A stretch of DNA of 64,000 nt from a bacterium (lineage in GTDB: Bacteria; CAIWAD01). Positions within the stretch are counted from its first letter, which is position 1. The number at the start of each line of letters is the position of its first letter. A model generated the notes under the pieces. That model was given only the letters and a program-made list of their open reading frames with translations. It was not told where the DNA came from and did not search any database. The position numbers and the translations under genes were made by a program. The stretch spans positions 1 to 64,000 of the forward strand of contig JAUXWS010000059.1 of assembly GCA_030685015.1 (NCBI GenBank). Direction: 5' to 3'. Below are positions 45,052 to 63,809 of this stretch, in pieces.

Positions 45052-45085
45052 ACCGTAGGGACACGATGCATCGTGTCCCTACGGT
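45052..45085. repeat. REP-like perfect palindrome, right of the RAYT gene
   Basis: A perfect 34-bp palindrome with arms ACCGTAGGGACACGATG and complement. It shares the GTAGGGAC...GTCCCTAC ends with the copy at 44433, while the middle differs in a paired way (GCGACG/CGTCGC against ACGATG/CATCGT), which indicates selection for the hairpin. Confidence 0.85.
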
Positions 45086-55710: not shown

Positions 55711-58425
55711 ATGGCACTACATCCTGCATTTCCTGTTTCCCCCTTTGCCGTGCTGGATCCAGAACACCGCTGGTTTCCTGCAGCGGAGGATCTGCGCACC
55801 GCGTCCATGGGCAAGCTGCTGCCACCCTTGGTCAGCCAGATCCGCCGTGAGGTGAAAGCCTGGAGGGAAACCGGCTATCCTGGCGCGTCCCCGACGTCAG
55901 CCGCCCTGTTGAACTGGTGGTTCGGTCGGGACCATCAGATCGAGCTGGTCGACGGGAGCCTGAAGGAGTTCCACTACTACTTCGCTCAGCGGGAGGCGGT
56001 GGAGTCCGTCATCTGGCTCCACGAGGTCCGGCAGGTGCATGACACGTTCGACCTCTTGCGCTTCGACGCCACCGGACAGGTATCGGCCGGCATGTTCGAC
56101 GAGGACTGGCCGCGCTATGTCATCAAGATGGCCACGGGCGCCGGCAAGACGAAAGTGTTGTCCCTGCTGATCGCCTGGAGCTACTTCCACAAGCTCTACG
56201 AGTCCGACTCCCGCCTGTCGCGCAATTTCCTCGTGATCGCGCCAAACATCATCGTCCTGGACAGACTGCGCGTGGACTTCGACGGCCACCGCATCTTCTT
56301 CACGGATCCCATTCTGCCCGACAACGGCCACGAGGGTCGTGCCTGGCGCGACGACTTCCAGTTGACCCTGCACATCCAGGACGACGTGCGCGTCGTGCGC
56401 GACGTGGGCAACCTCTTTTTGACCAACATCCACCGGGTCTACCTGTCCGATGTACCGGAGCCATCGCTGGATGACGATGACCTCCGCGACTACTTCCTCG
56501 CTCCTTTTGGCGATCGGCCGACGGGCAAGACCACGGACAGCCGCGCGGATTTGGGCGAGATCGTCCGCGACATCGACGAACTGGCCATCTTCAACGACGA
56601 GGCACACCACATCCACGACCCGCGGATGGCCTGGTTCAAGAGCCTGCAGGACATCCACCACCAACTCCTGCAGCGGGACCGCCGCCTGGCCTTGCAGGTG
56701 GACGTCACCGCCACGCCCAAGCACGACAACGGCAGTCTTTTCGTGCAGACCGTCTCCGACTATCCTTTGGTGGAGGCCATCCACCAGGGCGTGGTCAAGC
56801 ATCCCGTCCTACCTGACGCCGCCAGCCGCGACCGCCTGCAAGAGGTGCCCAGCGCCATCTTCTCCGAGAAGTATGTCGACTTCCTGCGCCTTGGCATCGA
56901 GGAGTGGCGCAAGAGCCGGGAAGAGCATGAGCGGCTTGGCAAGAAGGCCGTCCTTTTCGTGATGGTGGACGACACGAGGAATTGTGACGAGGTGGGCGAG
57001 GAGCTGCAGAAGCTCTGCCCCGAACTGCAGGGCGCCGTGCTTGTCATCCACACCAAGAAGAACGGCGAGATCTCAGAGGCCTCCAGCGGCCGGGACAAGG
57101 ACGAGCTGGACAAGCTGCGGCGGGAGTCCCGCAACATCGATTCCTGGGAGAGCCCCTATCGGGCAATCGTCTCCGTGCTGATGCTCAAGGAAGGCTGGGA
57201 CGTGCGCAACGTGACCACCATCGTCGGGTTGCGCGCCTACTCCTCCAAGTCCAACATCCTGCCCGAGCAGACGCTGGGCCGCGGCCTGCGCTGCATGTAT
57301 CCCGGCACCGGGATGCGGGAGACCGTTTCCGTGATGGGCACGCCGGCTTTCATGGAATTCGTGGAGTCGATCCAGAGCGAAGGCGTCACCTTCGAGCGCG
57401 TGCCCATGGGCGAGGACGTGGAGCGCAAGGACTCGCTGCTGGTGGAGGTCGAGAACGAGTCGTCCACCAAGGATCTCGAGACCCTGGACATTGATCTGCC
57501 CCGCCTGAGCCGTCGCTTCCAGCGCGACTACCGCGACCTGGAGGAGCTGGAACCGACCGCGCTGCCCGCCGCCAGCTTTCCCCTGAAGCCATTCTCGGCG
57601 GACGAGTTGCGCATGATCGTCTTCAAGACCCTGCTGGACGGAGAGATCGATCACACGATCACCCTGGACGGCCTGGGCGTGGCAGACTACCGCTCCGTGG
57701 TGGGCTTTTTCGCGCGCTCCCTGCTGAACGACCTGCGCCTCGTGGGCGGCTACGACATCCTCTTCGGCAAGCTCAAACAGTACCTCCGCGACAGTCTCTT
57801 CGCCACCGCTCCGGTGGAGCTGGAGGACCCGGTGGTGCTGCGCAACCTGGCCGAGCCGGAGGTGGTCAAGCGCGTCCTGGAAATCTTCCGCGCCGCCATC
57901 AACGCCCTCACTGTGCGCGACCAGGGCAACTGCCGCATCGAGGATCGCCTGCGCCTGCGTCAAGTCCGACCCTTCCGCACGGACTGGCGCCCACACCTGA
58001 CGCCGCGCAAGTCGCTCTTCAACCGTATCGTCGGCGAGGCGCACGCCGAGGGCCTGGAGTTGGCCTTCGCCCGCTTTCTGGACGAGGCCCCCGACGTGGT
58101 CGCCTTCGCCAAGAACTATCACGCCGTCGGTTTCAAGATTGACTACGTGAAGAGCGACGGCGACATCTCCGCCTACCTGCCGGACTTCCTGGTGAAGACG
58201 GTGGACGGCACGGTCTGGATCGTGGAGACCAAGGGCCGCGAGGAGCTGGAGCTGCCGCGTAAAATGACTCGCCTGGCCCAGTGGTGCGCCGACGCCAGCG
58301 TCGCCGAAACAGATGGACGCCGCTACGACTTCGTCTACGTTGACGAGGAGGGCTTCACGAAGCACAGGCCCACCACCTTTGCCGCGCTGGCGGCGGGATT
58401 CCGGGAGTACAAGGATCTGCCATGA
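55711..58425 (+). CDS. Type III restriction-modification system, restriction endonuclease subunit (Res)
   Basis: A 904-residue SF2 helicase-nuclease. N-terminal 'FAVLDPEHRWFPA' block is typical of type III Res; Walker A MATGAGKTKV (140-149), a DEAH-like box 'NDEAHHIHDPR', 'DVTATPKHDNGSLF', 'SVLMLKEGWDVRNVTTIVGLRAYSSKSNILPEQTLGRGLR' (motifs V-VI) and a C-terminal PD-D/ExK nuclease 'YLPDFLVKTVDGTVWIVETKG' (Asp825, Glu839, Lys841) are all present. It cleaves DNA after ATP-driven sliding when two inverted recognition sites lack methylation. No ribosome-binding site precedes the ATG. A 4-base overlap links it to the next gene. Confidence 0.93.
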   Translation: MALHPAFPVSPFAVLDPEHRWFPAAEDLRTASMGKLLPPLVSQIRREVKAWRETGYPGASPTSAALLNWWFGRDHQIELVDGSLKEFHYYFAQREAVESVIWLHEVRQVHDTFDLLRFDATGQVSAGMFDEDWPRYVIKMATGAGKTKVLSLLIAWSYFHKLYESDSRLSRNFLVIAPNIIVLDRLRVDFDGHRIFFTDPILPDNGHEGRAWRDDFQLTLHIQDDVRVVRDVGNLFLTNIHRVYLSDVPEPSLDDDDLRDYFLAPFGDRPTGKTTDSRADLGEIVRDIDELAIFNDEAHHIHDPRMAWFKSLQDIHHQLLQRDRRLALQVDVTATPKHDNGSLFVQTVSDYPLVEAIHQGVVKHPVLPDAASRDRLQEVPSAIFSEKYVDFLRLGIEEWRKSREEHERLGKKAVLFVMVDDTRNCDEVGEELQKLCPELQGAVLVIHTKKNGEISEASSGRDKDELDKLRRESRNIDSWESPYRAIVSVLMLKEGWDVRNVTTIVGLRAYSSKSNILPEQTLGRGLRCMYPGTGMRETVSVMGTPAFMEFVESIQSEGVTFERVPMGEDVERKDSLLVEVENESSTKDLETLDIDLPRLSRRFQRDYRDLEELEPTALPAASFPLKPFSADELRMIVFKTLLDGEIDHTITLDGLGVADYRSVVGFFARSLLNDLRLVGGYDILFGKLKQYLRDSLFATAPVELEDPVVLRNLAEPEVVKRVLEIFRAAINALTVRDQGNCRIEDRLRLRQVRPFRTDWRPHLTPRKSLFNRIVGEAHAEGLELAFARFLDEAPDVVAFAKNYHAVGFKIDYVKSDGDISAYLPDFLVKTVDGTVWIVETKGREELELPRKMTRLAQWCADASVAETDGRRYDFVYVDEEGFTKHRPTTFAALAAGFREYKDLP

Positions 58426-60113
58426 CGTCGACCCAGCTCCATGATTTGCTTAAGAAGCTCCTGGTCGATTGGGAGGGCGAGTGTGTGGAGTTCAAGCGAA
58501 CTATGGAGGACTCCAACGCGGCGCGGATGGGCGAGTACTTCTCGGCGCTAAGCAACGAGGCCAACTTGAGGAGCCGGGAGTCAGCGTGGCTGGTCCTGGG
58601 CGTGGACAACAAGACCAAAGCGGTCGTCGGCACAGTTTACCGCCGCGACCACGCGTACTTGCACACTCTCAAGCACTCCATGAAGCAGGGATCCGGTTTC
58701 ACGTTTCGCGAGATTCATGAGTTGCAGACTGACAAGGGTCGGGTCTTGCTCTTCGAGATTCCACCCGCGCCTCGTGGCATTCCAGTCCCGTGGAATGGGC
58801 ACTACTATGCCAGAAGTGGCGAGAGCCTTGTGGCCTTGGATATCGCCAAGCTCGACGAGATTCGTAGGCAGGCGGCTTCCGAGGATTGGTCGGCCGCGGT
58901 CTGTGAGCGGGCCACATTAGATGATCTTGATCCCGCTGCGCTGGAGAAGGCTCGCAGTGTGTTCCTAACCAAGCATGGCGTGCTGGGTGGAGGAAACCTA
59001 CCGGACGATGAGATCCGTGGCTGGAGCAATCTGGAGTTCTTGAACCGCGCGCGGCTGACGATTGATGGCCGGTTGACGCGGGCAACCCTGATTCTACTGG
59101 GGAACCCGCAGTCAACACACCATTTGAGTCCTTACGTCGCCGAGATGACTTGGAAGTTGGAAGGCGAACAGCAGGACTACGAGCACTTCGCTCCGCCCTT
59201 CCTGCTCAGTACCTCCCGCTTGTTCCAGCGTATTCGCAACCTGCGTCTTTCCCTCTTGCCCGCGGGCCAGCTGGTCCCTGTTGACGTTCTTAAGTACGAT
59301 CAGCAGATCGTTCTCGAGGCGCTGCACAACTGCATCGCACACCAAGACTATCACAGCTGCGCGCGGGTCGTGGTCATCGAGCGCCCAGGTGAACTTGTGT
59401 TTGTAAACGCGGGCTCCTTCTTCGATGGCCAGCCGCTGGACTATGTCCTTGGAGATCGAGTGCCGCAGCGCTACCGCAATCGTTTCTTGGCCGAGGCCAT
59501 GGGTCAGCTCCGCATGGTGGATCGCATGGGTCTCGGCATTCAGCAGCTGCTTTTCCTCAAGCAGGCCCAGCGTCGGCTGCCGCTGCCGGATTATGACTTG
59601 AGCGACCCCGCCAACGTGAAGCTCACTCTGCCCGGACGCTTCATCGATGAGAACTACAGCCGCGCCTTGCTGGTCAACGGGGATTTTTCGCTGAAGGAGA
59701 TCCTGGCCCTGGACCGCGTGCAGAAGCGGTTGCCCATTGACGACGCCACCTTGCGGGACCTGCGGCGGAAAGGCTTGGTGGAGGGGCGCAAGCCGGCTCT
59801 CCACGTGTCGGCCGGAGTCGCCGCCGCCACGGGGAACAGGGCCAACTACATCCTGACCAAGCGGCAGGATGACGCACACTATCAGCGTTTGATCCTCGAC
59901 TTCATCGAGCAGTTCAGGGCAGCTAGTCGCGATGAGTTGCGCACCATGCTTGCTGGCAAGTGGCCCGAAATTCTCTCCGAGAAGCAACGTGAAGACAAGC
60001 TCCACAATCTCCTGACCGCCCTAAAACGCATGGGAAAAATCGAACGAGTCGGGGGCTACCAAAGCGCCAAGTGGAGGCTTGCGTCACGGTTGAACCCAAC
60101 TGACAGGCATTGA
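58422..60113 (+). CDS. AlbA_2 (Schlafen)-like / HATPase regulator inside the R-M operon
   Basis: A 563-residue protein. N-terminal AlbA_2 (Schlafen AlbA-like) domain (about 15-140; 'GECVEFKRTMEDSN', 'ESAWLVLGVDNKTKAVVGT', 'IPVPWNGHYYARSGESLVAL'), a middle part with 'TRATLILLGNPQ', a RecG-type HATPase-like segment ('QIVLEALHNCIAHQDYHSCARVVVIERPGELVFVNAGSF', about 305-345), and a C-terminal winged helix-like tail with 'LRTMLAGKWPEILSEKQREDKLHNLLTALKRMG'. Such proteins are annotated as ATP-binding transcriptional regulators and often sit in defence islands. AT-richer codon use than the flanking genes suggests a separate acquisition. Start overlaps the res stop. Confidence 0.85.
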   Translation: MTSTQLHDLLKKLLVDWEGECVEFKRTMEDSNAARMGEYFSALSNEANLRSRESAWLVLGVDNKTKAVVGTVYRRDHAYLHTLKHSMKQGSGFTFREIHELQTDKGRVLLFEIPPAPRGIPVPWNGHYYARSGESLVALDIAKLDEIRRQAASEDWSAAVCERATLDDLDPAALEKARSVFLTKHGVLGGGNLPDDEIRGWSNLEFLNRARLTIDGRLTRATLILLGNPQSTHHLSPYVAEMTWKLEGEQQDYEHFAPPFLLSTSRLFQRIRNLRLSLLPAGQLVPVDVLKYDQQIVLEALHNCIAHQDYHSCARVVVIERPGELVFVNAGSFFDGQPLDYVLGDRVPQRYRNRFLAEAMGQLRMVDRMGLGIQQLLFLKQAQRRLPLPDYDLSDPANVKLTLPGRFIDENYSRALLVNGDFSLKEILALDRVQKRLPIDDATLRDLRRKGLVEGRKPALHVSAGVAAATGNRANYILTKRQDDAHYQRLILDFIEQFRAASRDELRTMLAGKWPEILSEKQREDKLHNLLTALKRMGKIERVGGYQSAKWRLASRLNPTDRH

Positions 60114-60217
60114 TTAACCGAAGCAAGCAACCGAGTCGATGGGATAACATTTTGATTATCAACGGCCTTCCTCTGGTAACTCACTGACAAGAACGGACCC
60201 GAAAACCGAGAGCACCC
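60114..60217 (+). promoter_or_regulatory. Spacer before mod with an AT-rich imperfect palindrome
   Basis: GATAACATTTTGATTATC (60143-60160) is an imperfect palindrome in the 104 bases before mod. It may be an operator for the preceding regulator. No ribosome-binding site is obvious before the mod ATG (only AACCGAGAG). A separate mod promoter in this gap is plausible, since methylation should precede cutting. Confidence 0.35.
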
Positions 60218-62572
60218 ATGGCCCGCATCCCCACCCTGGACTTGAGCGACAGCGAGAAGCGCGACATCATCCAGTTGATCCAGAAGGACCGGCCCCTGCC
60301 CGACAAGTACCGCTTCCTTCTCTTCGAGGACAAGCGGCAGGTGGAGCTGGTCTGGAACGGCAAGAGCCGCGAGGTCTGCACCACGGTGCTGCCCTTCCAG
60401 AGTCTGGAGCACATCGACGAGCCACGCAAGGAGGCGCCGGCCGATCCCCAGTTCGGCCTCTTCGACACCCGCGGCCGGCAGGTGCAGGGCTGGACCAACA
60501 AGCTCATCTGGGGCGACAACAAGCTCATCCTCTCCAGCCTGAAGGGCGGCGCGCTGCGCCGCCAGATCGAGGAGGCGGGCGGGCTGAAACTGATCTACAT
60601 CGATCCGCCCTTCGACGTGGGCGCGGACTTCAGCGTGGACATCGAGATCGGCGGCGAGAGCTACCACAAGGAGGCCAACCTCCTGGAGCAGATCGCCTAC
60701 CGCGACACCTGGGGACGCGGCGCGGACTCCTTCATCGCCATGATCTATGAGCGCTTGATCCTGATGCGTGATCTGCTGGCGGAAGATGGGAGCATCTATG
60801 TGCATTGTGATTGGCGGGTAAGTGGATACCTAAGGTTGGCATTGGAAGAAACGTTCGGCCGCGACGCGTACCGCAACGAGATCGTCTGGCAGCGAACAAA
60901 TGCGCATAACGAAACTGGCCAGTATGGCCGCGTGCATGACACAATCCACTTCGCATCAAAGTCCTCCGTCGGCTACATCTGGCATCCGGACCTTGTGTCA
61001 TTCTCTGAGGAACAACTGGCGCGCTATAAACAGGACGATGCTGGCCGCTACTACACGATGCAGGATATGACGGCACCACGCCCTAACAGCAATTCGGGAA
61101 AATTTGAGTGGCGCGGAACCCTCCCATCTCAAACACGAGGTTGGGGCTACACAATCGATCAACTTGAGTCGTGGTGGGCAGAAGGTCGAATCGCAACAAA
61201 GCGCGACGGCACACCAAGGATGGATGGTCTGATTGTTTATCTCGACGATAAGGCAGGCCAAGCTCCTCAAACGATTTGGTCGGATGTATCACGCGTGACA
61301 AACACAGGATCAGAACGACTTGGCTACCCAACTCAGAAGCCCGAAGCTTTGCTAGAACGCATCATCCAGGCCAGCAGCAACCCCGGCGACCTCGTCGCCG
61401 ACTTCTTCTGCGGCAGCGGCACCACCGCCGCCGTGGCGGAAAAGCTGGGGCGCAAGTGGCTGGCCACGGACCTGGGCAAGTTCGCCATCCACACCACGCG
61501 CAAGCGCCTCATCGGCGTGCAGCGGCAGCTCCAGGCGGAAGGCAAGGGCTTCCGCGCCTTCGAGATCCTCAACTTGGGCCGCTACGAGCGCCAGGCTTAT
61601 ATCGGTTTGGAGTGCGGCAGCTCGCTGCCGCTTTCAAAGCGACGGCAAGCCGTCGCACTCCAAAGAGAACGCGAGTTCCGCGAGTTGATCCTGCGCGCCT
61701 ACCAGGCCGAGCCCCTGGCCGACCAGAGCTTCTTCCACGGCAAGAAGGCCGGGCGCCTGGTGGTCACCGGCCCCATCAACCTGCCCGTCGGCCGCCTCTT
61801 CGTGGAGGAGGTGATCACGGAGTGCCGCAAGCGCGGCGCCAGCCGGGCGGACATCCTCGCCTTCGAGTTCGAGATGGGCCTCTTCCCCGCGGCGCTGGGC
61901 GAGGCCAAGGAGAAGGGCATCGATCTCCAGCCCAAGTACATCCCGGCGGAGGTCTTCGACAAGCGCGCCGTGGACAAGGGCCAGGTCGTCTTCCACGACA
62001 TCAGTTTCGTGGAGGCCACGCCGCGTTACGACCCGGCGGACAAGCTCGTCCTGCGCGTGGAGCTGACGGACTTCTCCGTGTACTACACCCAGGCCGGCCT
62101 GGACGAGGTGACAAAGGAGCTGAAGGAGGGCAAGAGCCAGATCCTCTGCCACGAGGGCCAGCTCTGGAAGGTGGGCAAGAGCAAGGAGGGCGTCGTCACC
62201 CGCGAGCGCCTCACCAAGCAGTGGACAGACTGGATCGACTACTGGGCCGTGGACTTCAACTACATGAGCCGCAAGGAGATCATCCAGGTGCGCAAGGACG
62301 AGGGCGTGCAGGAGGAGAAGCCGCTGAACTCCTTGCTGGACGAGAGCGCGGTCGCCCCGCCCTTGCCCTTGGAGGACTTCGAAGAGCGCTGGACGGGCGG
62401 CTACATCTTCGAGAACGAGTGGCAAAGCTTCCGCACCCGCCGCGAGCGCAACCTGGAGCTGGTCAGCGCCCCGCATCGCTACCACAAGCCCGGGCGCTAC
62501 ACGCTGGCGGTCAAGGTCATCGACATCTTCGGCAACGACACCATGATCCTTGTGCCGGTCTCCGTCGGCTGA
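60218..62572 (+). CDS. Type III-like site-specific DNA (adenine) methyltransferase (Mod)
   Basis: A 784-residue beta-class N6-adenine methyltransferase. The catalytic YIDPPF (Asp129-Phe132) precedes the AdoMet motif DFFCGSGTTAAV (397-404), the beta-class order. The region between holds the target-recognition domain (about 220-370); after 405 comes a long C-terminal part including 'GSERLGYPTQKPEALLERI' just before the AdoMet motif. It methylates the recognition site and, with Res, sets specificity. The block 60740-61350 is AT-richer than both flanks, and a 59-bp double-hairpin element is inserted in frame at 61606-61664 (residues 464-482). The C-terminal 200 residues are longer than typical Mod subunits. 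Confidence 0.93.
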   Translation: MARIPTLDLSDSEKRDIIQLIQKDRPLPDKYRFLLFEDKRQVELVWNGKSREVCTTVLPFQSLEHIDEPRKEAPADPQFGLFDTRGRQVQGWTNKLIWGDNKLILSSLKGGALRRQIEEAGGLKLIYIDPPFDVGADFSVDIEIGGESYHKEANLLEQIAYRDTWGRGADSFIAMIYERLILMRDLLAEDGSIYVHCDWRVSGYLRLALEETFGRDAYRNEIVWQRTNAHNETGQYGRVHDTIHFASKSSVGYIWHPDLVSFSEEQLARYKQDDAGRYYTMQDMTAPRPNSNSGKFEWRGTLPSQTRGWGYTIDQLESWWAEGRIATKRDGTPRMDGLIVYLDDKAGQAPQTIWSDVSRVTNTGSERLGYPTQKPEALLERIIQASSNPGDLVADFFCGSGTTAAVAEKLGRKWLATDLGKFAIHTTRKRLIGVQRQLQAEGKGFRAFEILNLGRYERQAYIGLECGSSLPLSKRRQAVALQREREFRELILRAYQAEPLADQSFFHGKKAGRLVVTGPINLPVGRLFVEEVITECRKRGASRADILAFEFEMGLFPAALGEAKEKGIDLQPKYIPAEVFDKRAVDKGQVVFHDISFVEATPRYDPADKLVLRVELTDFSVYYTQAGLDEVTKELKEGKSQILCHEGQLWKVGKSKEGVVTRERLTKQWTDWIDYWAVDFNYMSRKEIIQVRKDEGVQEEKPLNSLLDESAVAPPLPLEDFEERWTGGYIFENEWQSFRTRRERNLELVSAPHRYHKPGRYTLAVKVIDIFGNDTMILVPVSVG
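61606..61664. repeat. REP-like double-hairpin element inserted in frame in mod
   Basis: Outer arms TTTGGAGT and ACTCCAAA enclose two hairpins, GCGGCAGC-TC-GCTGCCGC and GCGACGGC-AA-GCCGTCGC, separated by TTTCAAA. Bases 61606-61664. It adds residues IGLECGSSLPLSKRRQAVAL, unlike the surrounding Mod sequence, and leaves the frame open. Elements of this type are common intergenic repeats in several phyla; inside a coding sequence it is unusual. Confidence 0.8.
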
Positions 62573-63399: not shown

Positions 63400-63417
63400 G
63401 TCAACCTCCTTGGACAG

Positions 63418-63440
63418 GTGTCGGACGAAGGGTCGGACAC
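63418..63440. repeat. GTGTCCGAC-type hairpin, first copy
   Basis: GTGTCGGAC and GTCGGACAC flank a 5-base loop, 8 of 9 pairs, preceded by TTGGACAG. The same unit recurs at 63679-63701. It sits within the 5' leader of the small membrane protein gene on the minus strand. Confidence 0.65.
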
Positions 63441-63678: not shown

Positions 63679-63701
63679 GTGTCCGACCCATGGTCGGACA
63701 C
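63679..63701. repeat. GTGTCCGAC-type hairpin, second copy
   Basis: GTGTCCGAC and GTCGGACAC pair perfectly around CCATG and are preceded by TTGGACAG, as in the copy at 63418. The loop differs while the stem is kept. Confidence 0.7.
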
Positions 63702-63809
63702 CTCGGCAGCTTGTGCCCAGTCGGGCTCCTGCGAGTGGCCCAAGACTTCCTTCCCTAAAGGGCAATTCCCATGTTGGCGGCACTTCACGCCTGTCACATG
63801 GAGCGTCCC

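Follow-up and report, generated by a model that had tools for sequence, protein, structure and literature searches.

The host gene and the element within it

The window, by which we mean the whole stretch of 64,000 nucleotides analysed here, holds a type III restriction-modification locus (55711-62572), in which a SLFN_AlbA_2 / RecG-C-like protein is encoded between res and mod. The closest solved structures to the window Mod are those of a type III Mod (6k0w) and of EcoP15I (4zcf). The open reading frame of mod and its two motifs are intact, and the protein presumably still works. The features of the locus are:

55711-58425, plus strand: res, type III-like restriction subunit, upstream of mod (PF04851 ResIII; PADLOC REase_III)
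60218-62572, plus strand: mod, type III-like DNA methyltransferase, 784 amino acids, intact open reading frame (PF01555 N6_N4_Mtase, 4.6e-40; PADLOC MTase_III, 1.4e-112)
60602-60613, plus strand: catalytic DPPF motif of Mod, intact (translation)
61406-61423, plus strand: FCGSGT motif of Mod (AdoMet binding), intact (translation, orthologue alignment)
61604-61666, plus strand: codons 463-483, linker after the FCGSGT domain, where the element gives 20 codons and orthologues have 17 native ones
61606-61664, no strand assigned: REPIN-like element (inverted REP doublet) of 59 bp, read in frame, beginning with base 3 of codon 463 and ending with base 1 of codon 483
61606-61613, plus strand: left end of the element, TTTGGAGT, containing the GGAG tag (sequence; an end common to the family but fixed by the search pattern)
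61614-61631, plus strand: hairpin 1, GCGGCAGC-TC-GCTGCCGC (sequence, fold, covarying family stems)
61632-61638, plus strand: centre of the element, TTTCAAA, self-complementary (sequence; the centre has 7 or 8 bases in 54 of the 72 fitting family members)
61639-61656, plus strand: hairpin 2, GCGACGGC-AA-GCCGTCGC (sequence, fold, covarying family stems)
61657-61664, plus strand: right end of the element, ACTCCAAA (sequence)

The earlier note on this DNA had described a 59-bp element with two GC hairpins and matching ends, inserted as a REP-like double hairpin in frame within Mod, and this description is borne out. Read from the sequence, the element runs TTTGGAGT-hairpin-TTTCAAA-hairpin-ACTCCAAA, with matching ends of 8 bp each and two hairpins having GC stems of 8 bp and loops of 2 nt; its translation had also been given correctly, the frame reading IG-LECGSSLPLSKRRQAVALQ. 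The two REP hairpins stand in inverted orientation, as in REPINs, and the element can be specified as an inverted REP doublet of a RAYT-linked family. The canonical REP tag GT[A/G]G is absent before its foot, the bases there being those of TTTGGAGT with GGAG. The element folds far better than its shuffles (z of about -5.6 as DNA and of -7.0 as RNA), and as a single strand it has alternative folds, namely an outer stem with two hairpins or one long hairpin. In the predicted model of Mod, a weak one (mean pLDDT 62), the first arm is a low-confidence loop and the second a helix entering the C-terminal part of the protein.

The RNA fold is very stable (-38.5 kcal/mol) and a role of REPs at the RNA level is a frequent topic (PMC3733652), both of which would suit a selected regulatory element whose hairpin tunes the translation or decay of the mod message. 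However, the element lies in the middle of the open reading frame, is absent from all other mod orthologues examined and belongs to a family whose copies lie for the most part outside genes and otherwise in unrelated ones, and we consider such a role highly unlikely.

Elsewhere in the window, positions 45052-45085 form a perfect 34-bp palindrome, ACCGTAGGGACACGATGCATCGTGTCCCTACGGT, which has GTAG feet and resembles the 'double-foot' GTAG REP. An inverted pair, AGGTGTCGGACGAAGGGTCGGACAC at 63416-63440 and GTGTCCGACCCATGGTCGGACACCT at 63679-63703, separated by 238 nt, is possibly a further REP-like family.

Replacement of the native Mod linker

The segment NLGxYER...LILxAY comprises 41 residues in all 26 orthologues with a standard linker and 44 in the window Mod; in distant orthologues the linkers are shorter (25-39 residues) and variable. 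The closest orthologue, with 63% identity, aligns to the window Mod without gaps up to residue 462 (82% identity over residues 380-462) and again from residue 483 (70%), and between these matching flanks it has 17 codons against the 20 of the window Mod. Because its flanks adjoin with 17 codons where the window Mod has 20, the element stands, relative to the orthologues compared in sequence, in place of about 50 bp (about 17 codons) of native linker. The earlier statement that the element adds about 20 residues has hence to be corrected to a net gain of 3 with the loss of the native linker. The residues of the element occur in no Mod orthologue examined, and the finding named in advance as counter-evidence, orthologues with the same residues encoded by unrelated DNA, did not turn up.

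The variability of the linker among distant orthologues might be taken to mean that this is a native linker resembling a double hairpin by accident. We regard the chance of this as negligible, since the 59 bp match the family plan described below at both ends and in both stems and since native linker DNA shows no likeness or microhomology to the element above that of shuffles.

No closely related mod gene with an empty site was found, the best orthologue being the one at 63%, and for this reason the boundaries of the element and the order of events, including whether the replacement took one step or two, are deduced. The comparison with Mod orthologues that the earlier note had proposed thus settled the 20 against 17 codons and left the exact boundaries as a deduction. 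The phylum of the window comprises five genomes only, and the two of the same genus lack the element, which left no near relative to show an empty site. For the next-best Mod host, the phylum has three genomes.

Two courses lead to such a replacement. The element may have been exchanged for the native linker in one step, or a clean, frame-breaking insertion may have been followed by a deletion of about 50 bp, or preceded by it. Clean insertion can occur in this family, to judge from a CcsA-like protein which, compared with its relatives, has a clean gain of exactly 20 residues, and the linkers of distant orthologues imply that deletions are tolerated in this region. On the other hand, the deletion would have had to stop precisely at the edge of the element and leave it intact, and the 26 nearer orthologues all keep their 41 residues. 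Weighing these points we give the two-step course an even chance.

A family of related elements in many phyla

The genome of the window contains two copies of the element in all, which answers the call of the earlier note for a copy count. The second copy (C95:75264-75322) has a gene for a histidine ammonia-lyase on one side and one for an alpha-amylase-like protein on the other (both named from the sequence) and is 86% identical, its stems being different yet complementary. It is flanked (L002 1397-1650) by two copies of another repeat, GTGCAGCCGCCCGTGGGGCGGAGGCGCGGGACACCCG...GGGGTCCACCGC. An assembly artefact, in which two sequences were joined through a shared repeat in the metagenome bin, deserves consideration in a genome of 105 contigs, as such repeats can misjoin contigs; nevertheless, both flanks of the element match one Mod orthologue at adjoining positions and in frame, and only one further copy exists in the genome, with 14% of its bases different, which makes this explanation a very improbable one.

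The element was found in none of the four other genomes of the phylum, two of them of the same genus. A broad sample of 386 genomes gave two further genomes with one or two copies, and a scan of 84,980 species genomes gave at least 119 stretches, with 121 copies among the matches listed; by record title, the matches listed extend over more than 10 phyla. Copies per genome ranged from 1 to 35 among the genomes counted. Reversed control patterns yielded 0 matches in the 386-genome sample and in the genomes counted. No match was found in the plasmid and phage collections, and in IMG/VR a 55-bp copy is present on two contigs of a single phage, where it lies at the N-terminus of a terminase large subunit. 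Because of the second copy in its own genome, the stretches elsewhere and the empty reversed controls, the element is not a product of chance; the same copies, together with the covarying stems of the family, rule out a chance or convergent linker.

Among 102 distinct copies, 72 fit one plan. The arms vary between genomes with compensatory changes, 90.5% of the pairs being Watson-Crick pairs (a value somewhat raised by our demand for 6 of 8 pairs in the fit to the plan) against 63.5% for shuffled partners. The ends were fixed by the search pattern and their constancy is therefore partly imposed, while the covariation of the stems is not. On this sequence evidence the element is a member of a GGAG-tagged, REPIN-like family with the shared ends TTTGGAGTGCG/CGCACTCCAAA. 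No published description of the TTTGGAGTGCG repeat family was recognisable among the titles listed by a literature search with the end strings, which covered few subscription papers, and the family seems to have been undescribed so far.

In-frame copies with homologous protein around them make up about 6 of the 121, the rest lying mostly outside genes. Such in-gene copies occur in ThiC (L093), a PD40-propeller protein (L111), a membrane TPR protein (L124), the CcsA-like cytochrome c assembly protein mentioned above (L141), an M28 peptidase (L090) and the tail of an amino-acid permease (L075). Many and mostly extragenic copies, which are typical of REPINs, are seen in donor-like genomes (35 in one Anaerolineales MAG, and about 6 of the 121 sampled copies in genes), as against the two copies of the window's genome. 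The loop of ThiC looks in sequence like a recurrent landing place, three genes that are about 90% identical (L334, L335 and L336) having three different palindrome-bearing sequences at the same loop. ThiC was considered as an empty-site control and rejected, its loop being too variable. At the N-termini of two phage terminases (L044 2727-2830 and L175 about 1350-1500), one carries the element and its 80%-identical relative a different GC-rich repeat at that place.

Linkage of the repeat to a RAYT subfamily

RAYT genes flanked by the same repeat, as expected of REPINs, were found at six genomic loci of other genomes (L130, L133, L135/L278, L154/L279, L157 and L265) and not in the window's own genome; at L130, L133 and L157 the repeats lie on both sides of the gene. 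Within a comparison set of 35 Y1_Tnp loci, drawn from 14 genomes with the repeat and from that of the window, the repeat lies within about 500 bp of the Y1_Tnp gene only at L265, L278 and L279, and these belong to one RAYT subfamily (about 47-55% identical to one another, the others 20-32%). The RAYT proteins tested score above the curated cut-off of the NCBIfam REP-associated tyrosine transposase family, match the solved TnpA-REP structure 4er8 and all have the HYH motif. At L265 (1291-2559) the RAYT open frame continues in frame from a dethiobiotin synthetase-like protein (named from its sequence) through the REP.

The repeat had previously been taken as distinct from a RAYT-flanking family, a claim that was not confirmed: the repeat flanks RAYT genes elsewhere, and no Y1_Tnp gene was found on the contig of the window (C59), the matches of the own genome lying on contigs C41, C94, C6, C19, C100 and C76. 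A Pfam search across the genome, tblastn and a motif scan all failed to reveal a RAYT on the window contig, and the repeat-linked subfamily has no member in the own genome (best match 26% identity). Viral contigs gave no RAYT, and plasmids nothing beyond one 28% match. Since the subfamily is missing from this genome and the copies number only two and differ in their stems, the element looks there like an immigrant or a relic.

For the palindromic elements of Rickettsia (RPEs) we know of no linkage to RAYTs. The element could be an unrelated palindrome of the RPE or MITE kind, moved by something other than a RAYT, given that RPEs behave in the same way, being palindromic, in frame and tolerated in proteins (PMC2229807), and given that the own genome has no matching RAYT. 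Yet the repeat is present at six RAYT loci and RPEs measure 105-146 bp against the 59 bp of the element, so that we attach very little probability to this origin.

Proposed origin of the element in Mod

We think it very probable that a REPIN-like GGAG element, with a RAYT as its likely helper, landed in the mod linker in place of about 50 bp and was tolerated there without acquiring a selected role. Two inverted REP half-units with the ends of the family would constitute a miniature mobile element, presumably mobilised by the distinct RAYT (HUH tyrosine transposase) subfamily. An ancestor would have gained the copy, most likely on DNA taken up horizontally or with the help of a RAYT that was later lost, and this copy would have landed in the linker after the FCGSGT domain, with 59 bp entering and about 50 bp leaving, a gain of 9 bp that kept the frame. 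Its survival in mod would be due to a linker that tolerates foreign sequence and to a frame free of stops; the second arm, LSKRRQAVALQ, has the look of a charged helix, as the native sequence does. On this reading the element is a REPIN-like immigrant in a tolerant Mod linker, without the canonical REP tag and, in the window's genome, without the copy number of a REPIN.

A further proposal, speculative and in our judgement rather unlikely, is that the widespread GGAG REPIN/RAYT family may insert by trading itself in one step for tens of nucleotides of single-stranded target and so exchange linkers of proteins in frame; palindromic elements would then land repeatedly at, and displace each other from, loops such as the Mod linker, the ThiC loop and the phage terminase N-termini.

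Comparison with known systems

With the REPINs mobilised by RAYTs (PMC3116915) the element shares the inverted REP pair, the short spacer, the many copies in some genomes and the association with RAYTs. Canonical REPs carry the tetranucleotide GT[A/G]G 0-2 nt 5' of the hairpin foot (PMC3686654, PMC6006769), whereas the tag here is GGAG; REPs have been described as species-specific (PMC6006769), whereas the ends of this family are common to many phyla; and the window's genome has two copies only and no matching RAYT. The HYH motif of the RAYTs linked to the family has been reported for subclass 2.8 (PMC6006769), which was described with GT[A/G]G tags and differs in this from the GGAG family.

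The earlier note had treated an in-frame REP inside a gene as exceptional, but precedents have been published (PMC3733652, PMC6006769, PMC2229807). A catalogue of 2013 lists REPs and dimers of REPs that are read in frame within genes and encode 20-30 residues, among others in Verrucomicrobia (Opitutus) and Rickettsia (PMC3733652). Like these intragenic dimers of the GTAG and CGTC super-families, the element lies wholly within a real gene and keeps its frame; its tag is different, however, and its 20 codons bring Mod a gain of only 3 residues, the native linker being missing. In-frame REP insertions reported in 2018 within tnpA-REP genes of subclass 2.4 likewise keep the frame and occupy peripheral loops (PMC6006769), while the host here is a restriction-modification methyltransferase and the RAYT subfamily another one. 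RPEs, known in protein genes since 2000 and similarly fused in frame within conserved proteins, among them a guanylate kinase that stays active, are longer than the element and unrelated to it in sequence (reviewed in PMC2229807).

Genes with REPs or REP dimers read in frame are therefore already known; new are the GGAG family that spans phyla, the RAYT that goes with it and the replacement of the linker. REPIN/RAYT biology is extended by a family with a RAYT subfamily of its own and a different tag, in which the ends stay the same over many phyla and the stems drift; these constant ends and drifting stems offer a direct test of the guide sequence required by the RAYT. The case of Mod indicates further that an in-gene REP need not be inserted cleanly and can come to stand where native protein sequence was.
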